NCBI GenBank assembly: GCA_949289215.1 | Contig: CASENC010000014.1 | Coordinates: 22,088-86,087 of the forward strand | Length of the DNA stretch: 64,000 nt | Reading direction: 5' to 3' | DNA from: an uncultured Bacteroidales bacterium | GTDB taxonomy: Bacteria > Bacteroidota > Bacteroidia > Bacteroidales > Muribaculaceae | Part shown: positions 839 to 12,402 of the stretch, piece after piece | Layout of the letters: every line of letters begins with the position of its first letter | How positions within the stretch are numbered: the first letter of the stretch is position 1 | The notes under the pieces: model-generated | What the model was told of the DNA's origin: nothing | Databases searched by the model: none | What the model saw: only the letters and a program-made list of their open reading frames with translations | Program-made: the position numbers and the translations under genes

Positions 839-860
839 GATATAAAAAGGCAGAACAATT

Positions 861-905
861 AAATGGGCAGTTCCCGGAATTTTTTTCGGAGACTGCCCAT
901 TTTGT
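861..905. terminator. Bidirectional intrinsic terminator
   Basis: A hairpin with arms TGGGCAG and CTGCCCA (outer bases AAA/TTT also pair) lies between the rubrerythrin gene and the convergent BACON gene. It has A-rich and T-rich flanks, so it can serve both strands. Confidence 0.8.
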
Positions 906-934
906 TTATGGTGGGGATAAAATGTATGTGGCAA

Positions 935-2488
935 TTACCAGCCCGAAGTGAACGTGAATGTGTTGTTATTGTTTCGGGTGAGCTGGTTGTCGTTGTCGTC
1001 ATAAATTACCACGTCGAACGAGAGTGTGCCGTTGAAACCCGGCGCCATGTTGAGTGACGTGTACGGCAGGAATAGCGTCCATGTGCAGATGCTCGATTCA
1101 TACGACATATAATCGTCTTCGCTCACGTGTACCTGTCCGCCATAGCCGTTGTTGAGCTGGGTCACATTGTCGGCATAGTAGAACCATGCGGTTGCCGTCA
1201 CCTTGCGGCTGAGCATATTGTCAACCTGGAATTTCAGGTGTATTTTCATACCTTTTTGGTAGCCTACAAACACGTTGTGGTCAACAGTGATGCTCTGGAT
1301 TTCGGCAGCGGGGCCACCGCCATCTTGCTCTATATTGATGCGCACTTCCTCGTCGCCGCAAGTGATTTTCATCCAGTCGCTGCGTGACGATGACGATGTA
1401 TTTGGTTCGCAATACAGGGTGAACGATGTGTTGGATATGCTTGTTACGGTGCAGAATGAAGGCACTCCCCAGGTGTCCACGTCGTCACCATCGGTCGAGA
1501 TGGTGAATGTGCGCGAACCGCCATCAGAATCGAATGAGACGTCAACCGACGATGAATACCCGTCCACTCGCAGGTAGGTGGCACCGCGAGAATATATATA
1601 GGCATATCCTGAATATGCCTTGCTGCCATCAATCCAAATTTCATAGGTGTAGGTGCCGGCCGGATAAAGGCTTTGGTCGTTGTTGCCCCATCCTCCCAAG
1701 TAGGCCGTGTTGCCGGAGCCCGGTTTGAAGGTTACATCGCGCTGGCGAGTGTAGCCCGAAGGCGAACTGCTGCCGGTGTCTAATGTTCCGTCGGGTTTGT
1801 AAATTTTGATTTTCACCGTTTTCTCTACTTCCGATGCCGGGCCGTTGTAGGTTATTTTTGCCGACAGGTATCTCATGTCGGCAGAGTAGAGGGTGGAGCC
1901 ATAGCTGTTAAGGTAATCACCGTCATAATTGGTGTTGGCAAACTCGATGCCGGTGATTTCAAGCCGGGCTTGGCGACCGGCCGCCTGCGAGACGTTGACG
2001 CGCACTGTGTGGCCGCCTGCGTTGACGTTGAACCAGTCGTCGCGTCCCGACGAGTAACCATTGGCATCACACACGATGGTTATCGACGATGATGAAATAC
2101 TCCTCACCGTAATCCATGATGGCAGTGCCGTGGCAGTTGGGGTGCCTTGATTGGTAGATATCGACAAGGTGCGAGTACCGCCCGAGCCGGGGAAGCTGAT
2201 TGAAGTGGAGCTGCTGTTGCCGTTGACGGTGAGGCGTGGCGACAATTCGTTGATGCGGTTGTCGCACTTGCGTACACCCTCGTTGATGGCGGCCAGGTGC
2301 TCGGCCTCCACATAACCCACGTCAAACTTGGCCGACTGGAACTTCTTCTTGGCAGCCTGGTATTGTGCCACGGTCGAAGCCTGTTGGTACATGGCTTGGG
2401 CCTCGTTCAGGGTTTTGTTGATACCTGCAAGGCACTCGATGGTGCATAGCACCATTATAAGCAGGAATGAGGTAATGCGTTGCTTCAT
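935..2488 (-). CDS. Secreted BACON-domain protein, last gene of the kinase/FHA operon
   Basis: This is a 517-residue exported protein with a signal peptide (about residues 1-22, ending ...ECLAG). A short helical region follows (25-80). Two BACON-like beta-sandwich domains can be seen at about 85-165 and 305-390: each has an FPGSGG- or FDSDGG-type start, a TF(S)IST strand, and ends in a V(N)-I/V-x-Q strand. Between and after them are other beta-rich regions with alternating hydrophobic residues. BACON domains (Bacteroidetes-Associated Carbohydrate-binding Often N-terminal) usually accompany glycan-active or surface enzymes, but no catalytic domain is visible. The start lies 7 bases after the stop of a Ser/Thr kinase gene, so it belongs to that operon. 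Its role there is unknown; binding an envelope or host glycan is possible. Confidence 0.8.
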   Translation of the reverse strand: MKQRITSFLLIMVLCTIECLAGINKTLNEAQAMYQQASTVAQYQAAKKKFQSAKFDVGYVEAEHLAAINEGVRKCDNRINELSPRLTVNGNSSSTSISFPGSGGTRTLSISTNQGTPTATALPSWITVRSISSSSITIVCDANGYSSGRDDWFNVNAGGHTVRVNVSQAAGRQARLEITGIEFANTNYDGDYLNSYGSTLYSADMRYLSAKITYNGPASEVEKTVKIKIYKPDGTLDTGSSSPSGYTRQRDVTFKPGSGNTAYLGGWGNNDQSLYPAGTYTYEIWIDGSKAYSGYAYIYSRGATYLRVDGYSSSVDVSFDSDGGSRTFTISTDGDDVDTWGVPSFCTVTSISNTSFTLYCEPNTSSSSRSDWMKITCGDEEVRINIEQDGGGPAAEIQSITVDHNVFVGYQKGMKIHLKFQVDNMLSRKVTATAWFYYADNVTQLNNGYGGQVHVSEDDYMSYESSICTWTLFLPYTSLNMAPGFNGTLSFDVVIYDDNDNQLTRNNNNTFTFTSGW

Positions 2489-2495
2489 ATCATTG

Positions 2496-4109
2496 TTATT
2501 CTGATTGTTGACGATAGAAAGTCATGCCGTTGCAACTTAATGTGATATAACGTTGTGCTTGCCCCGGGGTGTCGTTGAGGCTTATTATTACCGATTGGCT
2601 GTTGCCGGGTTGTATGGTTATTTCGGCCTGGCCGGTGACGGCATTGCTTGTGTCGCCGGGGCTTGTGGCTATTTCATAACGTATCACGGCATGGGTGTCG
2701 GTGGTGCATAATCCGTTGTAACTTATATATAATTGCCCGTTGTCGATTTGGGTTGAGGTCACATTCATATATGCACCCGGGCAGTCGTGGCTGTTGGCGA
2801 TGTTGATGAGAGCATTCTTTACTTCATCGGTAAGGGTCAGTGCGGCTGCAATATGGTAGTAAGAGATAGCTGTACCCACATCTTCGGCCACTTCATATTG
2901 TCCACGAGCCGAGCGCATCCATGCATTGTAGGCTGAGTGGAGCTTGTCATCGAGTACACTTTGTGAGATGGGGGATACCTGCATTTCGCTTATGAAAGTG
3001 TAAGTGTCGTTGAAATACTCCAGCGAGTCAAGCAGTTCCTTGGCCTTTAGGAGCGATGCATAATTTTCGGGGCTGCCCATTTCCACATTGTTGTTGTATA
3101 GTGTTGTCAGCCTGTAGTATTGTCCTTTTATGGCTTGCTCCTCCTTGTTCTCGCCTCCGCCCAATACTTTCACGAGCACTACCACTATGGCCACTGCTGC
3201 CACCATGGCCACCATCAACGGCCATTTCTTGCGTGTGGTGACGGGGAGTGTGGCTCCGCCGTTGCCTCCGCCTTCGGTTTCACCGTTTTTCCATTGCTCG
3301 AAGGTGCGGGTATCGCCTTTCATCACGTCACGTGTGTATTCCACCAGTTGCTCGGCGGTGGGACGGTCCCATGTTTCCTTTGCAAGGCAGGCTTGCATGA
3401 GCAGGCTCAGGCGTTCGCTGAAGTTGCTTCCGAGCCCGGGGATTTCGGCACCTGCGTTAAGCATGCCGCCGCCCTGTCCCATGAACGGCAGGTCGCCGGT
3501 GGCAAGTTCGTAGATCGACACCCCGAGCGACCATATGTCGCTTGCCTTTACCGTGAGCGGGTCTTTTAGAAAACGCTCGGGGCCCATGTAGGCTATAGCC
3601 CCTGAACCCACGGCACGTTTCGACTGCTTGCGCAGCGTTGAGCGCATTTTCTTGCTTATGCCGAAGTCGGTAATGAGGAATGTGCCCAAGTCGTCGATAA
3701 GTATATTTTCGGGTTTGATGTCCTGGTGTATGATTTCGTTGCTGTGCAAGTATTTCAGTCCGGCAGCCACGTCGTGGATGAAACGCCATATATCGTCTTC
3801 GGTGGCCGACCCTGCCAATTTCGCAGCTGAGCCGCGCGAGCAATACTTCATGGTGAGGTACGGGCGGTGGTCCCACACGCTGTAGTATTGTGCCGTGAGC
3901 AGGTTCTCGTGATTCAGCCCGAATGCCACCTTGTATTCGTCCCTGAACTCGTCTTGTCCTTGCCGGTCGAGTGAGATATATAATTTTATGGCAATGTCGA
4001 TGCCGATGGTAGTGTCTTCGGCAAGCCATACTTCGCCGAAGCTTCCGCTTCCCTTGAACTCCTTGAGTACATATCGGCCATCGATTACTGTTCCTTCATT
4101 CAGTTCCAT
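2496..4109 (-). CDS. Membrane-anchored Ser/Thr protein kinase (Hanks type, non-RD)
   Basis: This protein phosphorylates Ser/Thr residues at the inner face of the membrane. The 537-residue product has an N-terminal kinase domain (about 12-265): glycine loop G20-x-G-x-F-G, lysine K42 in an IAIK motif, catalytic loop HQDIKPEN (128-135) and DFG (148-150). The arginine of the usual HRD is glutamine, so it is a non-RD kinase, while the catalytic Asp and Asn remain. A single TM segment (about 296-316) follows a glycine-rich linker. A periplasmic part of about 220 residues has no recognised domain, and no PASTA repeats are seen. It lies 9 bases after the PP2C gene, a standard kinase-phosphatase pairing. 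Alternative: a pseudokinase, which is unlikely because K, D, N and DFG are intact. Confidence 0.92.
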   Translation of the reverse strand: MELNEGTVIDGRYVLKEFKGSGSFGEVWLAEDTTIGIDIAIKLYISLDRQGQDEFRDEYKVAFGLNHENLLTAQYYSVWDHRPYLTMKYCSRGSAAKLAGSATEDDIWRFIHDVAAGLKYLHSNEIIHQDIKPENILIDDLGTFLITDFGISKKMRSTLRKQSKRAVGSGAIAYMGPERFLKDPLTVKASDIWSLGVSIYELATGDLPFMGQGGGMLNAGAEIPGLGSNFSERLSLLMQACLAKETWDRPTAEQLVEYTRDVMKGDTRTFEQWKNGETEGGGNGGATLPVTTRKKWPLMVAMVAAVAIVVVLVKVLGGGENKEEQAIKGQYYRLTTLYNNNVEMGSPENYASLLKAKELLDSLEYFNDTYTFISEMQVSPISQSVLDDKLHSAYNAWMRSARGQYEVAEDVGTAISYYHIAAALTLTDEVKNALINIANSHDCPGAYMNVTSTQIDNGQLYISYNGLCTTDTHAVIRYEIATSPGDTSNAVTGQAEITIQPGNSQSVIISLNDTPGQAQRYITLSCNGMTFYRQQSE

Positions 4110-4118
4110 TGTGTGTTA

Positions 4119-5915
4119 TTATTTATCTGGTGTTTTATTTTCGTCGGTTTTAATTTCAAGTTCTTCTCTCTTGTCTTCTTCATCTTCAGCAGGGGTAACC
4201 TCTTTGTCGGATTTCTGTTCGCCGGCCGACCCGGTTTCGTCTGATACGGTAGTCAGCTCGGTTGAGGTTATTTCTTCCTTATTCTGGAGGATTCGTTTCC
4301 CCAAGTTGTTGAGCATTTGGTCGAATGATTTGAAAGTGCCCTCATTGATGAGATTTCTCTCGTCAACTATTTTTTTGTATATTCTTGCAACCAGTTCTTT
4401 GTCTTTGCCTGAAACGCGTGATGACACATCATTAAGCCGAATGATGAAGTGTGCCCTGCGTTGTAGTTGCTTTACCCAGGTGGTCGTGAATGCCATATCC
4501 TTCTGGTCTTTGCACCTTTCTATTTTCCCTGTGACATCGTTGATAAGCCAGTTAAGGCCTGAGTTACCTTTCAGCACGGCTGCAACGGCGGCCACGGCTT
4601 TTTGTTGCTCGGCTTTCCATTCATCAAGGCTGCTTGTGGTTTTTTCCTCCTTGACAGGAGTTTCGGTCACCTTATCCGGCTTGGAGCCGGTTTCGTTTCC
4701 GACTGTTTTTTCAGTTTCAGGTTTCGCCTCGGGAGTGATGTCGGTTCCTGCAACTATGGTGGTAGAGTCTTTTTTCCCGATAGTGTCATTGGTTTGGGTT
4801 ATGCCATCGGGTTGGTCTCCGCCACTGCGTGTGCCTGCCCAGTATGCACCCGCTATGGCTGCCACAACGCACAGTGCTGCTATCCCCCAAATGAGCCACT
4901 TTTTTTTATTGTCGGGTTGTGTCGGTTGGGGGGTGCCTCCGTTATCATTGTTCCCGTTATTGCTGTTATTGTTGTCGATATTTGAGGTGACGCGTGCCAC
5001 GGTGCGCGGTTTCTTTGTTGCACGGCCTGCGCCGTTCATTATCTGGCACAGTATGACGGTCACGTTGTCATACCAGTCGGCACGTTCGGCGGCGCGCATC
5101 AGTGCCTCGCGGCAATTTGTCAGAGTGTCGCAATTGGCGGCGATTATATCTTCGATGGTGTCACCGGGGTAATAGTTGCCGTTTTCATCGAGAGTTTTGC
5201 GATCGCGCAGAACACCGCTCAGGCCGTCGCTGCACAGCAGTATTATGTCGCCGTCACACACGTCAAACTCGCGAGACTCGGGCCGTGCCGAGCCGTTGGG
5301 GTCGCCCAGGCTGCGTGTGACTATGTTCCCCTGCGGGTGCTCGAATGTATCTTCGTAACGAATAACCCCCTGGTTGGCAAGTTCCTGTACATATGAGTGG
5401 TCGCATGACAGTGGTTCGATGCCGTTGAGCGGGTTGTAGCGGTAGGCACGGCTGTCGCCGCACCAGCTCAGTGTCATGTGCCCGTCCACTATCCAAGCAA
5501 GGATTATGGTCGAGCCCATGCCATCGTGTTCGGGGCATGATTTTGCATCTTCTTTTATGCGCCGGTCGGCCTCCTTGATGGTCTGTTCAAGGTATTGGCG
5601 GCGTTTGGTGGCATCGGCGGCCATTCGTGGAGTGATTTTACCCGGGGCGAAAGCCTCTTTAACCGTTTCCACGGCTATTGCCGAGGCCACTTCGCCTGCG
5701 TTCATTCCACCCATTCCGTCGGCTACGGCCATCAGGCATCCGCAATCCGACAGCAATAATTCGGTGTCGGCCTGGCATCGTATAGGTGCGTCGTCGCTAA
5801 GGTCATCGTCGAAGTAGAAGTTGTCTTCGTTGCCATTGAGCGGTGCCGCGGGGTTGAATTTGCCTGCGGCATCGGAATAAGCGACAATGCGGAAAGTTAT
5901 ATTTTTGCTGCTCAT
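4119..5915 (-). CDS. PP2C-family Ser/Thr phosphatase with TM anchor and long periplasmic tail
   Basis: This is a metal-dependent phosphatase likely to reverse the two kinases encoded beside it. In 598 residues the PP2C domain covers about 8-292. Its motifs are intact: NEDN (metal Asp31), ADGMGG (66-70 holds DGMGG), GMGST near 133, GDSRAY near 154, LLCSDGL (D230) and DNVTVI (D283). An Asn-rich linker leads to a single TM segment (about 340-360). The extracytoplasmic tail of about 235 residues is rich in Thr, Glu and Lys with a helical middle part and an acidic end, and I do not recognise a domain in it. It is separated by 3 bases from the preceding secreted-protein gene and by 9 from the kinase gene. 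The architecture, a cytoplasmic catalytic domain with a single TM and a periplasmic tail, mirrors that of the neighbouring kinase. Confidence 0.93.
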   Translation of the reverse strand: MSSKNITFRIVAYSDAAGKFNPAAPLNGNEDNFYFDDDLSDDAPIRCQADTELLLSDCGCLMAVADGMGGMNAGEVASAIAVETVKEAFAPGKITPRMAADATKRRQYLEQTIKEADRRIKEDAKSCPEHDGMGSTIILAWIVDGHMTLSWCGDSRAYRYNPLNGIEPLSCDHSYVQELANQGVIRYEDTFEHPQGNIVTRSLGDPNGSARPESREFDVCDGDIILLCSDGLSGVLRDRKTLDENGNYYPGDTIEDIIAANCDTLTNCREALMRAAERADWYDNVTVILCQIMNGAGRATKKPRTVARVTSNIDNNNSNNGNNDNGGTPQPTQPDNKKKWLIWGIAALCVVAAIAGAYWAGTRSGGDQPDGITQTNDTIGKKDSTTIVAGTDITPEAKPETEKTVGNETGSKPDKVTETPVKEEKTTSSLDEWKAEQQKAVAAVAAVLKGNSGLNWLINDVTGKIERCKDQKDMAFTTTWVKQLQRRAHFIIRLNDVSSRVSGKDKELVARIYKKIVDERNLINEGTFKSFDQMLNNLGKRILQNKEEITSTELTTVSDETGSAGEQKSDKEVTPAEDEEDKREELEIKTDENKTPDK

Positions 5916-5918
5916 GAG

Positions 5919-6785
5919 TTATTTCTTGTTTTTCTTTTTGTTTTTCTCTTTTTTGTCGTCCTTGCTTGAACCTGTGGGGGTGAGTTCGTCTCCTTTCGGA
6001 GCTTCTTTCACCTCTTCATTCCGGCGTTTCGGGATGGCTATTTTCCACGTTCCCTCTTCACCCGGCACCATTACACCACACAGGGTGAAAGTTATTTGCC
6101 CAATGCCGGTTTGGCGCGGCACAATGTATATGCCGCCCCATATCGAGCCTTTCACTTGTGGAGCCTTGACGGCATATTCTGCCGAGTCGGGCGAAAGAGC
6201 CAGCTTGTGGCGGTATATGGTGTGGGTAACCAATGGCTGTGCCGATTGTGTATTGCAACTGTCGATGGGTTGCGGCGATGTTATCCATGCCAGCCAACCA
6301 TCGCACTCGCCGCAGGTGGCAGTGTCGGGCATGAAGCCGTTGCCGCCGAATGTGGTGCTGTCGGGAACCATATACAAGCCCTGTGCAGCCGGTTTTGCAT
6401 CGTGAATGTCGCCGGCAAGTGTTGTCAATGCCGAGTCGGTGAATTCACGATAACGGGTGGTATAGAGAGCCGGTCGGTGGCTTTCGCGGTAACGGTCGAA
6501 GTTTTCGTCATATTCCCACGGGCGTATGGCACAGTCTTGCACGAGCAGTCCGCCGGGAACTTTCACTGCCACCGAGTAGCTTTGCCCGAATTCATTGTTC
6601 CCATACCGTCCGAAGAGTTGGTGCGACACCGTGTCTTCAAGTTGGTAGGCTTGTTCCACTATTACCATTCCGCCGGTGATGGCGTCTTCTACCAATTGCT
6701 GGTTATTGCTTGAAAACATTCCTATGTCGAATTGAGCAAAAATGCTCATAGGAATTAATGTGAATAATAATGCTATCTTTTTCAT
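5919..6785 (-). CDS. Secreted protein of unknown function in the signalling operon
   Basis: I do not recognise this 288-residue protein. It has a clear signal peptide (about 1-18, ending IFAQ). The mature part is probably periplasmic and beta-rich, with a short Cys-containing stretch (TCGECDGW near residue 165) and a charged tail that ends in a run of Lys and Asn. The lysine-rich end could bind peptidoglycan, nucleic acid or membrane surface, but this is speculation. It lies between the FHA-protease gene (10 bases) and the PP2C gene (3 bases), so it is surely part of the same transcript. Confidence 0.75.
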   Translation of the reverse strand: MKKIALLFTLIPMSIFAQFDIGMFSSNNQQLVEDAITGGMVIVEQAYQLEDTVSHQLFGRYGNNEFGQSYSVAVKVPGGLLVQDCAIRPWEYDENFDRYRESHRPALYTTRYREFTDSALTTLAGDIHDAKPAAQGLYMVPDSTTFGGNGFMPDTATCGECDGWLAWITSPQPIDSCNTQSAQPLVTHTIYRHKLALSPDSAEYAVKAPQVKGSIWGGIYIVPRQTGIGQITFTLCGVMVPGEEGTWKIAIPKRRNEEVKEAPKGDELTPTGSSKDDKKEKNKKKNKK

Positions 6786-6795
6786 AAGCTTTGAA

Positions 6796-8352
6796 TTATC
6801 GAATAACGCTAATAGGAACTACGCGACCTTTCTCAAGTGTGCTGCCCGAAAGTATGCCGACAACCGTGTAAGTGTCATTTTCCCACACGAATACCGGTCC
6901 GCCCGAGTTGCCGCTTTGGGTGTCGTCGTTTGAGGTCATGATTGTACCATTCACATCCAGTCCGTCACGTGCGACTTCGGCGTGTGACGAAATCGGCGAC
7001 GGTGCCGAAGGGTCTTCTCCGCCTCGCCCGTAAGGGAAGCCCAATATTTGCAAGTTGGTGCCGATGGGAAGCTTGGTTGATAAATCGGCATCAAAAGGCA
7101 AGCCGCTTTTCGATGTGTTCACCGTTACCCAGTCGGCAGCATCCACCTCCGACTTTTTGAGAGCAACCGTCATGCCGTTTTCAAGTGTTGCGGTTGCAGC
7201 TGCGTCGCCACTGCGGTCGGCATTGCATTGCTTGTTGGTGAACTGTATTTGGTCGCCCGAATTGGATATTGCAAGGAATGTGACTTCGATGTCTCCGCCG
7301 TTATGCACAATGGCATTTTCCATCATCAGGAAGTTGCTGATACGCTCGTCGCCCCAGTTGGCATAATAATAGTACCAGGTTTCGGTGACGTGGCGTGCCG
7401 TTACGAATTTGCCGTTTGATAGCAGGAATCCGGTACCTACCGGTCCGCTCGGTTCGTCGTCAACTTGTACTTCCCCGTTTGGTTGGGTGATTACCGTCTT
7501 TAGTTGGTATATTGCGTAGGTGTAAGGGAAACACTGTTCTTTCAATGCTCCGCTCGGAACACTTCCGCCGCCACCGCCAACCTTTGCTCTTGAAGCCTCT
7601 TCACGTGCTCTGCGGGCTTGTTCCTTGGCCTCGCGAGTCTCTTGTGCCATTTGAGAAAGGCGCTCCTCGTAGCCTTCGATTTTCTTGTTTGTGGCAATCA
7701 ATTCCTGTGTCAGTTGTTCGGCTTTCTGTTGGTTGGTGGAATTTTGTTCTATCAATCCGGCTATTTCTTGTGTCTTTTGTTGCAACTGGTTGTCGAGTGT
7801 CGATATTTTCCAGGTAGCACCGGCAACACACAACACCAATACGCATGCCAGTGTAGTGATGGCTGTCTTGTAGGGGCGCAGTGCCTGCTTGCGGAACAGG
7901 TTGAGGCGCGACGTGAGTCCTATGCTCTTTACCAATCCCTTGTTGCCTTCTGGAACTATGAAGCCCATGCGAGGCCCGTTGGTGGAAAGTTGTATTTCAT
8001 CGCCGTTTTGCAAGTACCATTCGGTTTCCACGCGGTGCCCGTTGAGGTAGGTCGAGTTGGTTTTTGACAGCTGCACCAGTTTCCAGTTGTCGCCGTCCTT
8101 GACAATGGCGGCATGGCGTCGGCTCACCGTGGTAAACGACTCGTCGAAACGTACTTGGCAACTCGGGGCTCGTCCAAGTTCTATTTGGTCAACTATGATG
8201 ATTTGATTCTCTCCGGCTTTGTGGTATTTTGATGAAACTTTGTGTTCCAGCACATAATACCTGCGGCCTCCGGCTCCCATGACCGATTTCATGCCGGCTC
8301 CGATTGATCCTGCAAGCGATCTGCGATATTGGTTCGTGGTCTGTTGTGCCAT
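6796..8352 (-). CDS. FHA-TM-coiled coil-trypsin-like serine protease fusion
   Basis: This 518-residue protein joins a phosphothreonine reader to a protease across the membrane. An FHA domain covers about 52-135, with GRAPSCQVRF (60-69), SRRHA and NSTYLNG motifs intact. A TM segment lies at about 161-180 and a long charged coiled coil at about 184-257. A Gly/Ser linker leads to a chymotrypsin-fold protease domain (about 270-518) with H321 (FVTARHV), probable D407 (AADWV) and S483 (GNSGGP). Topology predicts FHA in the cytoplasm and the protease in the periplasm. I chose the ATG at 8352: the open frame runs further upstream, but only antisense-like residues lie there, overlapping the MotA-like gene. 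The likely role is a protease controlled by phosphorylation of a partner. Confidence 0.9.
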   Translation of the reverse strand: MAQQTTNQYRRSLAGSIGAGMKSVMGAGGRRYYVLEHKVSSKYHKAGENQIIIVDQIELGRAPSCQVRFDESFTTVSRRHAAIVKDGDNWKLVQLSKTNSTYLNGHRVETEWYLQNGDEIQLSTNGPRMGFIVPEGNKGLVKSIGLTSRLNLFRKQALRPYKTAITTLACVLVLCVAGATWKISTLDNQLQQKTQEIAGLIEQNSTNQQKAEQLTQELIATNKKIEGYEERLSQMAQETREAKEQARRAREEASRAKVGGGGGSVPSGALKEQCFPYTYAIYQLKTVITQPNGEVQVDDEPSGPVGTGFLLSNGKFVTARHVTETWYYYYANWGDERISNFLMMENAIVHNGGDIEVTFLAISNSGDQIQFTNKQCNADRSGDAAATATLENGMTVALKKSEVDAADWVTVNTSKSGLPFDADLSTKLPIGTNLQILGFPYGRGGEDPSAPSPISSHAEVARDGLDVNGTIMTSNDDTQSGNSGGPVFVWENDTYTVVGILSGSTLEKGRVVPISVIR

Positions 8353-8375
8353 ATTGAAAAGTGTTACGTTATGTG

Positions 8376-9116
8376 TTATTTGTAAAAACGATTTATTAAA
8401 TTGTCTATCATGTAGTTGCTCATTTGGGCAAACAGGTGGTCTTGCCGCTTGTGAGTGTAATGGATGCCCAGCATGAGGAAAATGCTCAGGAACAGTGCCA
8501 CTAGCGTGGTGTCGAATGCCACGGCGAGCATACTTGTCATCTTGTTTATGCCCTCGGTAGTGCCGGCCTCGTTGGCATATCCGAGCGATGCGGCGATGCC
8601 TATCACTGTGCCTATGAAACCCACCGATGGTATAGCCCAAGCGCAGTAGCGTATGAATTCCTGTTCGCTCTCCATGTCGGAGGCATATATCTTGACTTGA
8701 GCTTCAACCAATCCCAGCACTTCCGACGACGACTTGCTCAGGCGGTATTTCGTGCAGGCTTTTTTTATCAGGTCGGTGAGCAGGAATTTGTTGGTGTGCT
8801 CAAGTTGCTGCATATTCAGTTTTAGCTGGTTCACGTCATCGGGGCTGAGTACCCAATTCTCTTTCTCGGGCAGCAAGTGAGCCTCGAATGAGTCGTATTC
8901 GTGGGTGATTTTGCTGTTGGCATGGGCTATTTCAAGCATTCCGAAGAAAAAGAAGAAATAAGTTGCCCCTTGTATAAGCCCTTCGGGCATGGTGCCACCG
9001 AGCATAGTCAGCAGTCGTGATGGATTTTCGTCATCGTTGGCCAAGACTATCACCACCATCAGCGCGGAAGCGAATATTATGCTCAGCAGTATCCTTATGT
9101 ATCTGTTGCTTGCCAT
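8376..9116 (-). CDS. MotA/TolQ/ExbB-family proton-channel protein
   Basis: This is a 246-residue inner-membrane protein of the family that converts proton flow into mechanical work with a MotB/ExbD-type partner. Hydrophobic segments lie at about 7-26, 46-63, 158-180 and 195-218, with a charged cytoplasmic helical region between the second and third. The third segment has the family's proline and glycines (PSVGFIGTVIG, 163-173). This matches the MotA_ExbB fold rather than a transporter. It lies 14 bases after the gene for its likely stator partner and 23 before the FHA-protease gene. It is not close enough to ExbB or TolQ to suggest TonB or Tol service; Zorya ZorA is a distant analogue. Confidence 0.87.
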   Translation of the reverse strand: MASNRYIRILLSIIFASALMVVIVLANDDENPSRLLTMLGGTMPEGLIQGATYFFFFFGMLEIAHANSKITHEYDSFEAHLLPEKENWVLSPDDVNQLKLNMQQLEHTNKFLLTDLIKKACTKYRLSKSSSEVLGLVEAQVKIYASDMESEQEFIRYCAWAIPSVGFIGTVIGIAASLGYANEAGTTEGINKMTSMLAVAFDTTLVALFLSIFLMLGIHYTHKRQDHLFAQMSNYMIDNLINRFYK

Positions 9117-9130
9117 TGGTTCTTATTTAT

Positions 9131-10030
9131 TTATTTTATTACACGTCCCGAGCCCCATAAAGGTTCGCGGTGTGAAGTTATGTTGAAGCCCGAGTCAGAC
9201 AGGCGGAAAGTGACGAAGCACTTGTTGGGCCCCTTGGTGATGGTGAACGGGTCGAGTTCGACCCTTCGCTCGTCGGGTTTGCCCGGGTGGAAAATAAGCA
9301 CGCACGACACTGTGGCCGATCGGGCTACCGATGATTCGTAAATGTTGACCCAAGCGGTATATTCGCCGGGGTATATTTCGGGAACGTAGAACAGCTCGAA
9401 GCGTTCCTCGTCGCCTGCACGTCGTTCCCTCACGTCCTCGCCCAGTATGCCCCATTTCTTCGACGGGTACATACGCCAGCATTGTTCGGGGTCGGGTTCA
9501 AAACGTTGTACTCCAAGGTCAACGTCGGCATCTGTTTCGGTCCACCGGCACAGTATTCCGAAACGTGCGAATACACCCATAGTCTTCTCTATGGTGTTTG
9601 CCACCTTGCTGCGCTCGTTGGCTTCTTCAAGCTGTTGGCGCAGTTCGGCCACTTCCTGTTTCATCTTTTCCGAGGCCGAGTTGGCGTTCTCCAGCTCTTC
9701 GCGCAACCGCCGGTTTTCGTCGGCCGCCTCTCGAATGCCGCTTTCGAGTTCCGCGATGCGGTCGTTGAGGCGGTTAATGTTCTCTTTCAGCCCGTTAAGC
9801 TCATCGTTCAATTGTTCAAACACCTCTTGCGGCACACTGTTCTTGATTTTTTCTATGGCATCGTCGAGGCTTGTGGTGATTTCCTGTATTTCTTTCACCT
9901 TTTCAAGCAGTTCCACATCTTCTTTTGTCATTTTCGGAATGATTATGAACAAGATGATTACTGCCGCCAATGCTCCAGAAAGCAGGTCGAGGAACGACGT
10001 GCCGAATATGTTGATTTCCTGTCGTGCCAT
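9131..10030 (-). CDS. MotB/ExbD-like stator partner with coiled coil and beta domain, no OmpA domain
   Basis: This 299-residue protein has one N-terminal TM helix (about 13-34) starting with FLDLLSG. The Asp at residue 15 sits where ExbD and MotB carry their proton-binding Asp. A long periplasmic coiled coil rich in Glu, Leu and Arg covers about 35-160. The last 130 residues look beta-rich, with aromatic and charged residues (W-x-M-YPSKKWG, GEYTAWV). The OmpA-type peptidoglycan-binding domain found in MotB and ZorB is not visible. It is encoded directly before the MotA-like gene, as expected for a stator pair. The novel C-terminal domain probably sets what the motor acts on. Confidence 0.82.
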   Translation of the reverse strand: MARQEINIFGTSFLDLLSGALAAVIILFIIIPKMTKEDVELLEKVKEIQEITTSLDDAIEKIKNSVPQEVFEQLNDELNGLKENINRLNDRIAELESGIREAADENRRLREELENANSASEKMKQEVAELRQQLEEANERSKVANTIEKTMGVFARFGILCRWTETDADVDLGVQRFEPDPEQCWRMYPSKKWGILGEDVRERRAGDEERFELFYVPEIYPGEYTAWVNIYESSVARSATVSCVLIFHPGKPDERRVELDPFTITKGPNKCFVTFRLSDSGFNITSHREPLWGSGRVIK

Positions 10031-10042
10031 ATAAGATTTGCG

Positions 10043-11416
10043 TCAAGCGCCCTCTACGCGCAGTTTCACATCGCCTATTGAAATTATGTCGCCCGGTTTT
10101 ATGACTGCGCCGTATGTGCCCACTTCCTGTGAATTGACAAATGTGCCGTTAAGCGAATTTTTCCATTGCATGGCGTTCCGGTGGCTGCAGTGGATGTTGC
10201 ACCTGTCGCAGGGGAACAGCCTATGCTGCCGCAGCCCGTATTCGCAGTTGCACCTGAACTGGCCGTCGCGCAGCACCCACACATTGTTACCGGGGTCTTT
10301 TTCGATGGTGCAGTGCTGCCGGGAAATGAAGCAGGTTTCGGTTTCCTCGATGCTTATTGAGTTCCACGTGTCGGCCGAAGCCCGTCCTATTGTGATTATG
10401 GTGTTCCCGTCGGTAAACAGGCTGTTGAGCACGTAGGTGCGTCCAAGTTCCTCGCCTTGCATCACGCGCAACATCAGTCCGGCCGACGTGTCGCGATTAA
10501 ACCGCGTGGCATCGGGCACAGGGTCGGGTATCGATGCGCCGGGATTGGGCATCAGTTTCAGCACATCGTCGATGGTTTGCAGCCGTTGCTTGAAGTCGGG
10601 AACAAGGCACCCTTCGATAACTGGCAGCCATGTCGCGCCATCGGGTCCCGACAGTCGTGAACGGTCCCAATTGCCGCGTTGGACGTTATTGACGTATCGT
10701 GGCACGTCGGCTTCCGATTCAAGTCGGCCGAAAGGCAGGCTTCCCGTGAGCAACTGGTACATCATCACTCCAAACGAGAATATGTCGGTCGTAGGCAGCA
10801 CTGTAGCATTGCCGCGCTTTGGGTTTACTTGTTCGGGTGGCATATATGCAATGGTGCCGAAACGCTGTTGCGGCACACCTGTCCAGCCTCGTTGTGTGAG
10901 GCGGTTGTTTTGGTCGCCCGAAATGCCGAAGTCGGTGAGCACGGCGTGTGAACTGTCGCGTAGCAGTACGTTTTCGGGTTTCAGGTCGCGGTGGACTTTG
11001 CCGTTGGCGTGTAGGTCTCTCAGCCCCAGTAGCACTTGGCGTGCCATCAGTGGCAGGTTTACGCGCGTCTGTTTGAGTGCGCTGTTGAGGTCGCCGCAAG
11101 GGCAATATTCCATCACGATATAGGAATTCCCCCTTACCATGCCTTTCGCCACCGAGTGTACGAGGTAGTCGCTGGGAATTTGCCCGGTTTCATATTCCCG
11201 CTCGAAGCGCTTGAGCAGGTTTGGCCGTTCCGAGGCAATCACCTCCCACAGTTTCAGCAATTTCAGCGCATAGGGCTTGCCCATGCTGTCGGTCACGCAG
11301 AACACTTGCCCGAAGGTTCCTTCGCCCAAGAACGATTTCACTTTCCACTTTTGGTCGATGTAATCGCCCGGAGTGAAGTGGCAGCGTTCGGCGACGCAAG
11401 TTCCCTGGTGGTTCAT
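10043..11416 (-). CDS. Ser/Thr protein kinase fused to a C-terminal FHA domain
   Basis: This is a 457-residue soluble kinase. The kinase domain (about 22-285) has GEGTFG (31-36), K52, catalytic loop HRDLKPEN (142-149), DFG (162-164) and a PPE motif in place of APE. An FHA domain follows at about 325-455 (IGRAS, SRQH, SLNGTFVN, GDIISIGD). The loop between the SRQH and NGTFVN parts of this domain holds an extra stretch of about 35 residues with C389, C391, C403, C406, C410 and nearby His, which looks like a metal site. No TM segment is seen. Kinase-FHA fusions can bind their own phosphorylated form or recruit phosphorylated partners. The gene is second in the operon, 5 bases after the zinc-ribbon gene. 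Confidence 0.92.
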   Translation of the reverse strand: MNHQGTCVAERCHFTPGDYIDQKWKVKSFLGEGTFGQVFCVTDSMGKPYALKLLKLWEVIASERPNLLKRFEREYETGQIPSDYLVHSVAKGMVRGNSYIVMEYCPCGDLNSALKQTRVNLPLMARQVLLGLRDLHANGKVHRDLKPENVLLRDSSHAVLTDFGISGDQNNRLTQRGWTGVPQQRFGTIAYMPPEQVNPKRGNATVLPTTDIFSFGVMMYQLLTGSLPFGRLESEADVPRYVNNVQRGNWDRSRLSGPDGATWLPVIEGCLVPDFKQRLQTIDDVLKLMPNPGASIPDPVPDATRFNRDTSAGLMLRVMQGEELGRTYVLNSLFTDGNTIITIGRASADTWNSISIEETETCFISRQHCTIEKDPGNNVWVLRDGQFRCNCEYGLRQHRLFPCDRCNIHCSHRNAMQWKNSLNGTFVNSQEVGTYGAVIKPGDIISIGDVKLRVEGA

Positions 11417-11421
11417 GTGTG

Positions 11422-12072
11422 TTACCCTTTCTTGAATTCAAACATACGGTTGCCCAATACAATCACATCGCCGTCTTGCAGGCGCATTTTCCTGTCAACG
11501 CGTATCAGCGTGGTTTGCATCTCGCTACGGTTTTCGATGTACCATTCATCGCCTTCGCGTGTGATAACGGCTTGTACTTTCGATGTTATTGAATTGTTGT
11601 TGCTGTCGGTGTTGGCACGGTTCAGCGTGATTTCGTCGCCCGAGTAGCTTACCGGTTCGTAAGTGGCCTGCTCGGTTTGCCACGGAATGCGGCGCAATGA
11701 GCAAAAACCTTCGTTTTGAGGTGTGCTCCACGGATTGATTGTGCCTCCCACATTGTTGCCCTGCCTGCGAGGTTGAGGTTGCGGCTGTGGCTGCGGTTGG
11801 GCCTGTTTTAGCGCGTTTTGGCATCGTGGACAGAAGTTCATGCTTGGAGTTATCGGGTAACCACATCGCGGGCATTGTCCCGGCTGTGGATTTGGATTCG
11901 GCGGTGTCGGGTCGTTGGGGAAACCGCCCGGCTCGCGTATGGTAGATTTCAATTGCTCAAGGTTGTCGTGATTTGAAACATTCTCAATCATCGACCCCTC
12001 AAGCGGAGCATTGCACTTGATGCAACGAGTTGCATTAGGCTCGTTGATCCATCCACAATTTTTGCATCTCAT
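11422..12072 (-). CDS. Double zinc-ribbon protein with C-terminal FHA-like domain
   Basis: This 216-residue protein is the first gene of the minus-strand operon. Two zinc ribbons can be seen: C3-x2-C6 with C17-x2-C20, and C67-x2-C70 with C81-x2-C84. They are separated by a Pro/Asn-rich linker and followed by a PQ repeat (about 91-101). The last 75 residues resemble an FHA domain in strand pattern and end (RLQDGDVIVLGNRMFEF), but the usual GR, SRxH and NG motifs are weak (NRAN, SITSKVQAV), so phosphothreonine binding is doubtful. It may be a scaffold for the kinase encoded next to it. The ATG at 12072 fits the first ribbon starting at residue 3. Confidence 0.85.
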   Translation of the reverse strand: MRCKNCGWINEPNATRCIKCNAPLEGSMIENVSNHDNLEQLKSTIREPGGFPNDPTPPNPNPQPGQCPRCGYPITPSMNFCPRCQNALKQAQPQPQPQPQPRRQGNNVGGTINPWSTPQNEGFCSLRRIPWQTEQATYEPVSYSGDEITLNRANTDSNNNSITSKVQAVITREGDEWYIENRSEMQTTLIRVDRKMRLQDGDVIVLGNRMFEFKKG

Positions 12073-12157
12073 ATAATAGTTCCTTTCAAGTTTTAAGGTG
12101 TTAAATCATTGTCAGACATCATTGCCGTTTTGTCGTGAGACATAGGGCAAGTTGATG

Positions 12158-12165
12158 CAAAAATA
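12158..12165 (-). promoter_or_regulatory. Candidate -7 element for the kinase/FHA operon
   Basis: Read on the minus strand the bases are TATTTTTG, a full match to the Bacteroidetes TAnnTTTG element, about 85 bases before the start of the zinc-ribbon gene. No clear TTTG was found at the -33 distance, so confidence is limited. Confidence 0.4.
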
Positions 12166-12402
12166 TGAATAATTCTTGTAACATAGAAGAAGAAGTTTAA
12201 AAATTAAATCGGGTGAAAATGTGTATTTTAATAAATTGCCATGGAGCATTACTATGTGTTGAAAAATGTGTATTATTTGGCGAAAAAATCATGATGCACA
12301 GGCGCGGATTTACAAATGCAAACGCCAAAGTCGCAGATTTGTTAAAAAAATGCCATGTCGGAGGGTTGTATATGTTGTGCGGCATGGATTTTTGCTTGTT
12401 GA

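Follow-up and report, generated by a model that had tools for sequence, protein, structure and literature searches.

The nine genes of the operon

The window analysed here is a stretch of 64,000 nucleotides from an uncultured Bacteroidales bacterium of the Muribaculaceae (assembly GCA_949289215.1, contig CASENC010000014.1, positions 22,088 to 86,087 of the forward strand). It carries an operon of nine genes, g1 to g9, which encodes Ser/Thr kinases, a PP2C phosphatase, FHA proteins, a MotA/MotB-like pair (MotAB) and a predicted membrane-bridging protease. The genome (G000) is a 2.58-Mb draft and the operon lies on its contig C14. The nine open reading frames (ORFs) follow one another on the minus strand from 12072 to 935, with spacers of 5, 12, 14, 23, 10, 3, 9 and 7 bases when g5 is made to start at the ATG at 8352, following its homologues. 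The single run with gaps of at most 23 bases that an initial annotation of this DNA had described is borne out by the ORF coordinates; the kinases, PP2C, FHA proteins, MotA and protease that it named all have Pfam matches, and the transmembrane (TM) segments are as it claimed. Throughout, domains are those of Pfam and TM segments come from a hydropathy scan only.

The protein g5 (6796..8352, minus strand, as are all the genes) is composed of an FHA domain (3e-16), a TM segment (residues 164–182) and a coiled coil followed by a trypsin-like protease domain (Trypsin_2, 9.4e-8). Hydropathy predicts that the FHA domain is cytoplasmic and that the coiled coil and the trypsin domain are outside, in the periplasm. 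The signature residues of the FHA domain are invariant in 8/8 sequences. The catalytic triad consists of H321, D407 and S483, the aspartate being assigned by position, and His-Asp-Ser is kept in 16/16 homologues; by this triad, g5 is predicted to be an active-type trypsin-like serine protease. The next gene, g6 (5919..6785), encodes an exported protein of 288 residues which matched no Pfam family, and a g6-like gene was detected in 13 of 16 operons.

Two of the proteins are Ser/Thr kinases: g2 (10043..11416; Pkinase 8.4e-37) is fused to an FHA domain (6.8e-11) and no TM segment was found in it, and g8 (2496..4109; Pkinase 1.3e-43) has a TM segment at residues 298–316 and a periplasmic domain. 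The phosphatase g7 (4119..5915; PP2C_2 5.4e-15) is also anchored (TM 340–358) and ends in a periplasmic tail. The motifs expected of these enzymes are kept: HRD, DFG and Lys in 14/14 g2 sequences (G052 and G646 left out), H[R/Q]D, DFG and Lys in 13/13 g8 sequences (HQD in G000), and the PP2C metal-site motifs in 15/15 g7 sequences. There is no PASTA domain among the Pfam matches of the nine proteins, and the kinases score 135.9 and 109.1 with the NCBIfam PASTA-kinase model, whose cut-off is 450. The MAD6 equivalog of the MADS system gives 141.2 and 105.8 bits, for a cut-off of 460. The FHA part of g2 (within window 11416-10043) has a cysteine-rich insert which, among 14 homologues, only G000 and its closest relative found, the congener G006, possess.

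The first gene, g1 (11422..12072), encodes a double Zn-ribbon (Zn_Ribbon_1, 1.5e-9) and a degenerate C-terminal FHA domain (3.7e-5), with two linkers that are hardly alignable between homologues except for a T-[I/V/M] motif. This motif occurs somewhere in linker 1 of 16/16 homologues and in linker 2 of 15/16; shuffled linkers gave means of 4.8 and 5.6, and 0/5000 shuffles were as high. After thinning to 10 sequences the counts are 10/10 and 9/10, again with 0/5000 shuffles as high; the test left out a paralogue of g1 that lies in the type VI secretion system (T6SS) cluster of the same genome. In G000 the motif threonines are T44 and T111, and the threonines of these motifs are proposed as candidate phosphoacceptor sites.

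The channel pair consists of g3 and g4. The protein g4 (8376..9116) is a MotA/ExbB/TolQ-family channel subunit of 246 residues (MotA_ExbB 2.6e-14, 53.5 bits for a cut-off of 22.9) which has no long tail and ends about 32 residues past its last predicted TM segment. More specific models fall well short (TolQ 21.1 bits vs a cut-off of 221; ExbB2 14.5 vs 135.35), and a sequence search of the PDB with a MotA profile returned weak MotA, PomA and TolQ matches, the best at 0.0055. The TM scan and the homologue alignment show that g3 (9131..10030) has one N-terminal TM segment with an aspartate, Asp15, which is invariant in 10/10 homologues, followed by a coiled coil and a C-terminal domain. The Pfam matches of g3 are coiled-coil-type noise (25 of 51 matches listed), and a PDB search with a MotB profile also returned coiled coils (best 60 of 481). 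No OmpA or peptidoglycan-binding family was found for g3 among the 25 of 51 matches listed, nor for its 10 homologues among 25 of 152. A DUF2135-like reading of the outer domain, made by eye, was dropped, since this family is not among the Pfam families listed. The protein g3 is read as MotB because it has a single N-terminal TM segment with an invariant aspartate and lies beside MotA. The pair thus shows what defines the MotA/TolQ/ExbB superfamily, namely a MotA_ExbB match and an adjoining MotB-like subunit with an aspartate in the membrane. The membrane segments of the MotA and MotB homologues contain invariant residues; such residues line the channel.

The last gene, g9 (935..2488), encodes an exported BACON-domain protein (1.8e-5, 25.1 bits for a cut-off of 25).

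A six-gene core with an optional channel pair

The natural unit is a core of six genes (g1, g2, g5, g6, g7 and g8), to which MotAB is an optional addition. This core was searched in samples of the Bacteroidota, and g5 and MotA in plasmids as well; the counts include G000, and the genome samples overlap, their redundancy being kept. Genomes with the gene of the FHA-TM-trypsin protein number 10/129 in the family sample, 4/99 in that of the order and 3/395 in that of the phylum. MotA, at strict cut-offs, was detected in 3 of 61 near relatives. At E 1e-3 this becomes 33/61, but the other 30 are weak partial matches to the C-terminal half of the query (19–30% identity in the rows listed), which were read as TolQ/ExbB-type and set aside. 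In larger samples, MotA was found at 1e-12 in 3/393 genomes of the order and 6/395 of the phylum, three of the latter being loose relatives, and a MotA profile at 1e-15 detected 5/395 genomes of the class, two of them with minimal loci. The three phylum matches of g5 are the genomes which have MotAB and this gene set in the MotA phylum sample, and the phylum samples used for g5 and MotA are likely identical.

MotAB and core genes occur together in eight genomes (G000, G006, G052, G062, G687, G646, G842 and G1026; g1 and g2 of G646 were found by tblastn). In 8/8, MotA and MotB are together and directly upstream of g5. G006 has all nine genes in order, with 54% identity for g5, 78% for g7, 80% for g6 and 90–96% for the rest, and G052 keeps eight of the nine in the same order at 26–51% identity. 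This recurrence goes beyond chance and supports a membrane gene set inherited as one, in line with the single membrane system suggested by the initial annotation. In G052 two separate ORFs make up the FHA-kinase, and g6 and g7 are separated by a nucleotidyltransferase-like gene (DUF6036, 5.5e-7). The gene g8 was not seen in the stretch read of G062, nor g6 in G687 and G646. No match to g9 was found in the six MotAB-bearing genomes other than G000 and G006; g9 is near-private to these two congeners, with a weak match in G1217 (31% over 108 residues).

Core genes without MotAB are found in eight further genomes (G030, G1188, G1213, G1167, G1195, G1217, G1179 and G061), which are seven of the family matches of g5 and one of the order matches. 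All six core genes are present in seven of them, and in the eighth, G061, g8 is cut by the contig end; G1213 is cut after g5. In these operons g2 directly adjoins g5, at a distance of 9–62 bases. A tblastn search with three MotA and two MotB queries gave no match in the regions of seven of the MotAB-less operons and of G1204, and ORF-level BLAST found no MotAB in the region of G030. Among the MotAB-less genomes, G030 alone is certain to have been covered by a genome-wide MotA search, which gave a weak match elsewhere in it (5.5e-4). An extra FHA gene lies between g7 and g8 in G030, G1195, G1217 and G1179. The tenth family match, G1204, has g5 alone and was left out of the operon counts; by eye, this g5 (L111 9001-10398) has flanking genes similar to those around the complete operon of the congener G1217 (L110). 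G1167 has two more kinase genes downstream of the operon (L108 11457-14000), 53–56% identical to g8 over about 260 residues, which suggests duplicated sensors.

Since eight operons do without MotAB, the channel pair looks accessory, and the phospho-controlled protease looks like the core. The expectation that the nine genes stay together in relatives holds for the six-gene core, which recurs, and fails for MotAB, which is optional, and for g9; a proton-driven machine, which the initial annotation had placed at the heart of the operon, is not supported in that form, given the eight genomes that carry the core genes without MotAB. In a maximum-likelihood tree of g2 (14 rows, without G052 and G646), genomes with and without MotAB interleave: G062, which has the pair, groups with G061, which does not (support 100/99), and G000 and G006 group with seven MotAB-less operons (94/97). 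The well-supported branches of this tree force at least two changes of MotAB state, and the tree of the periplasmic half of g5 forces two. This interleaving indicates that the gene set has probably acquired or shed MotAB on more than one occasion.

Looser relatives of the operon exist. Three loci (G691, G638 and G811) encode MotA, a MotB that contains a vWA domain, an exported-TM-FHA protein and PP2C (by BLAST, and by Pfam for G691), and kinases lie beside those of G691 and G811. A pseudo-trypsin reading of their exported domain, made by eye, was rejected, as a profile comparison aligned the FHA part only. A Rhizobium plasmid has PP2C, an FHA-like protein (read as FHA), MotA and a MotB-like protein, and kinases lie close to them, so that MotA is associated with kinase and PP2C genes outside the phylum too. 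Besides the core operons, the FHA-TM-trypsin architecture was found only in G1204, where it stands alone, and, with two FHA domains, in the T6SS cluster described below. The plasmid search returned three records with a MotA relative, all distant, and none with the protease. On two cyanobacterial plasmids (L058 9773-12352 and L059 9770-12370) a MotA relative of about 470 residues precedes two small MotB/ExbD-like proteins. On one of them its neighbours include viperin and a type III-B CRISPR locus, on the other an N-6 DNA methylase, SLATT and a helicase; this trio is a possible three-gene defence system. In the minimal loci of G1084 and G1129 (L073 9667-11671 and L074 8015-9979), MotA and MotB are found with a protein of 102–103 residues read as a double zinc ribbon.

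The exchanged protease half and the extra block

The comparison of G000 with G006, its sister species, shows that the catalytic half of the protease has been replaced. The DNA of the two operons is mostly 75–99% identical in bins of 200 bases, apart from a single bin of 64% in the tail of g7, outside the exchanged segment. In bins of 60 bases, the identity drops to 23–62% from about 7835 to 6690, a segment (6690..7835) which covers the periplasmic half of g5 and the signal-peptide region of g6. The segment has two sharp edges, with 90–100% identity just outside one and 93% outside the other. In the g5 protein, the FHA half is 99% identical and the periplasmic half 32–34%; that of G006 is no closer to G000 than those of operons of other genera. 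Both g5 genes are nevertheless in frame, with their triads intact. Between G000 and G1188 the two halves are 81% and 36% identical, and the FHA half evolves slowly across the family. The outer tail of g7 (43–90% per bin between G000 and G006) and g6 (75–100% past its signal region) both vary more than MotB, which is 90–95% identical past its TM segment. Periplasmic domains are therefore not variable as a rule. So clean a replacement of this half of the protease hints at a strong selection on its target.

The operon as a whole lies in a block that several congeners lack. The genes of rubrerythrin and RsmH are adjacent, 345–453 bases apart, in five congeners (G001, G003, G004, G005 and G007) of the seven without a MotA match; in the other two, no rubrerythrin gene lies in the 9.9 kb read of G002, and in G008 843 bases separate rsmH from the end of a contig. 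In G000 and G006 the operon stands between these two genes, in an extra block of about 11.4 kb (839..12300). On the right, the window is again homologous to the empty sites from about position 12300; on the left no homology was found between the end of the rubrerythrin gene and the operon, and the edge of the block was set at the rubrerythrin end for this reason. Insertion of the block is a simpler reading than its loss.

Relation to known systems and possible function

By its predicted gene content, the operon matches the membership set of none of Zorya, Tol/Ton, Agl-Glt, KKP, MADS and T6SS, and the gene set is, as far as found in openly licensed PubMed Central literature, undescribed. The initial annotation's view that it fits no known system agrees with the families and literature searched; nor do the matches listed for the nine proteins include the secretion-system, Tol/Ton or Zorya genes that it had also failed to see.

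Zorya also has a MotA/MotB-like pair in an accessory operon, and the operon gives weak ZorA2 matches (best 2.9e-6). Zorya defence requires the tail of ZorA and the peptidoglycan-binding domain of ZorB (PMC11890865), whereas g4 lacks ZorA's long cytoplasmic C-terminal tail and the MotB has no peptidoglycan-binding family among the matches listed. ZorC, ZorD and ZorE are absent from the PADLOC matches listed for the nine proteins (best 25 for g2, g3 and g8), and Pfam found no nuclease or helicase domain in them. The Agl-Glt machinery of Myxococcus combines the AglRQS motor with a bitopic FHA-TM protein, GltG (PMC3169522), which recalls g3, g4 and g5, but GltG ends in a TonB-like domain where g5 ends in a trypsin domain, and the gene table in the available part of that paper has no kinase or PP2C. 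Conversely, TonB-like, TPR and outer-membrane-barrel families are absent from the matches listed for the nine proteins. A survey of MotAB diversity places proteins of unknown function among the non-flagellar ion transporters, with no mention of FHA in the available text (PMC12505986). KKP (PfkA-PfkB-PfpC), a module found in diverse prophages, has two kinases, one of them with an FHA domain, and a PP2C (PMC11341870). Its second kinase has a cold-shock domain, while here the second kinase, g8, is TM-anchored, no cold-shock domain was found by Pfam, and g2 does not adjoin g7 and g8. Finally, the vWA-MoxR/ternary and peptidase-coupled conflict systems (eLife 2020) share trypsin-like peptidases, kinases, PP2C and FHA proteins with the operon (PMC7159879), but MoxR, STAND and GAP1 are not among the Pfam matches listed here, and the text of that paper, as available, does not mention MotA, TolQ or ExbB.

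The relation to T6SS is closer. The initial annotation had compared the operon with the PpkA-PppA-Fha control of T6SS, in which kinase, PP2C and FHA proteins are likewise encoded together, and this comparison was apt. Contig C35 of this genome, and not the operon contig, holds a T6SS cluster (about 16–50 kb; L042, L081 and L043) with TssC (3.5e-130), two TssD, a ClpB-type ATPase, a VgrG-like protein and a weak TssK-like match below the cut-off. It contains paralogues of g1 (30% over 148 residues), g2 (37% over 449) and g7 (31% over 241), and a gene with an FHA-FHA-TM-trypsin architecture like that of g5, although BLAST finds no match between the two proteins at 1e-3. The cluster bears its own set of kinase, PP2C-TM, FHA-TM, FHA-FHA-TM-trypsin, Zn-ribbon/FHA and FHA-kinase genes. 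The operon differs in having no Tss gene (sheath, tube or baseplate) among the nine proteins, its output being an FHA-tethered protease, whether MotAB is present or not. For the T6SS of the congener G004, BLAST over the 19.9 kb read found no match to the Zn-ribbon/FHA, kinase-FHA, PP2C and trypsin genes. Among 61 relatives, three have a close kinase-FHA protein and four have TssC, and both occur together in G000 only, so that the pair does not generally accompany T6SS. These paralogues suggest that Bacteroidota may connect a single type of phospho-switch to various machines of the envelope.

We propose, at about even chances, that a relay of threonine phosphorylation gates a membrane-bridging protease whose catalytic half is exchangeable. 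FHA domains bind phosphopeptides (PMC11341870, PMC7159879), and the binding of Fha to a phosphothreonine of TssL (PMC3953482) is a precedent for the docking step. The TM kinase g8, perhaps together with MotAB in the version that has it, would sense a change in the envelope through the outer domains; g8 and g2 would then phosphorylate threonines, most likely those of the T-[I/V/M] motifs of the g1 linkers. The FHA domains of g2 and g5 would dock on the phosphorylated sites, which would gather g5 in the membrane, and this clustering, or a movement transmitted from neighbouring MotAB, would activate the outer trypsin-like domain, which would cut a periplasmic or surface substrate. The phosphatase g7 would reset the system. 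We infer from sequence all the steps of phosphorylation, docking, proton flow and cleavage, as well as the role, for which the likeliest candidate is that of an accessory unit of envelope defence or stress, its catalytic half being exchanged to fit changing targets. That the operon represents a new class of envelope immunity or surveillance, with a protease switched from the inside by phospho-FHA binding, a half swapped in an arms race and an optional ion motor as sensor or power source, seems rather unlikely. As for the initial annotation, its observation is confirmed and its interpretation is, overall, partly supported.

Several points weigh against the proposed relay. By eye, the FHA domain of g1 lacks the usual R-x-H, and its canonical residues are missing; the T-[I/V/M] pattern was picked post hoc, on an alignment that had already been inspected, and by alignment column the threonines are kept in 14/17 and 16/17 rows, the T6SS paralogue included. 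The sharp exchange is seen in one of the two congeneric pairs examined: in the second, G1026 and G842, there is no exchange, the protease half being 50–87% identical per bin of 40 residues and the FHA half 80–92%. For the FHA half of g5, the well-supported branches of the tree force a single change of MotAB state, and the tree program warned of long branches (G062 and others). The profile comparison, in which only the FHA part aligned, gives no support for the protease in the wider group of G691, G638 and G811, and BLAST with g1 to g9 found no kinase, phosphatase or FHA neighbour at the MotAB loci of G1084 and G1129. As to the flanks, a PADLOC scan at E 1e-10 of 63 proteins from 15 loci (62 of the 67 listed flanking proteins and one inserted gene, the flanks in the window being left out) gave, in 25 of 94 families listed and with no control set, the type IIG enzyme of G062, PDC-S02 and a kinase, each family occurring in a single member; a defence-island signal is not clear.

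The alternatives differ mainly in what the operon is for. Defence against phages or competitors, in which MotAB, the TM kinase or both sense that the envelope is under attack, as has been proposed for ZorAB, and the protease is the effector, is possible, if somewhat unlikely. It would explain the patchy presence (g5 in 10/129 genomes of the family, MotA in 3/393 of the order, the block missing in congeners) and the exchangeable effector half, and it is in line with the kinases and PP2C, as in KKP (PMC11341870), with the distant MotA relatives near defence-type genes on the two cyanobacterial plasmids and with the type IIG restriction enzyme-methylase that adjoins the G062 copy. The flank scan, however, is without clear signal, no nuclease domain was found among the nine proteins, and the MotB has no match in 50,697 phage records, nor MotA or g5 a relative in IMG/VR; carriage by phages or prophages was rejected on the latter grounds. 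An envelope machine driven by protons, comparable to Agl-Glt and serving transport, adhesion or movement, switched by phosphorylation and with the protease as a processing accessory, would account for a channel pair with invariant membrane-segment residues and for the resemblance to a motor joined to the bitopic GltG (PMC3169522). It is quite unlikely, given the eight operons that keep core genes without MotAB and the lack of any TonB-like, TPR or barrel family, or of OmpA for the MotB, in the matches listed.

Housekeeping signalling of envelope stress or of the cell wall, similar to that of PASTA kinases and PP2C but with a periplasmic protease as output, is improbable to the same degree: the TM kinase and TM PP2C pair and the trypsin-like periplasmic protease would suit it, yet the majority of the relatives examined, congeners included, lack the gene set, no PASTA domain was found, and the protease half is replaced between sister species. 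The exchange itself might be an assembly chimera or a fast neutral divergence in an ordinary signalling cluster, since both genomes are draft assemblies (52 and about 50 contigs). This is very unlikely: both proteins are in frame with intact triads, the identity of 90–100% holds up to the edge, falls to 23–62% beyond it and is 93% past the other side, and no comparable step is seen elsewhere in the operon.

If the proposed relay exists, the operon would be a compact and testable example of a phosphothreonine signal apparently relayed through the inner membrane to a protease. The operons with and without MotAB form a natural experiment on what an ion motor adds to signalling, and finding the target of the protease could reveal a new front between gut bacteria and phages or rivals.

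Some minor features of the loci complete this description. In G062 (L046 4330-8130) the type IIG restriction enzyme-methylase gene that adjoins the operon has a match to an IS200-like transposase inside its frame. A scan for promoter-like sites gave 11, for 10.6 in shuffles, and one for terminator-like sites gave 26, for 16.9 in shuffles, nearly all on the other strand; neither result was used. Between the rubrerythrin gene and the end of the operon, at window positions 862-905, a long palindrome with a T-rich loop, which the terminator and promoter scan did not list, can be seen by eye and is perhaps a shared terminator.

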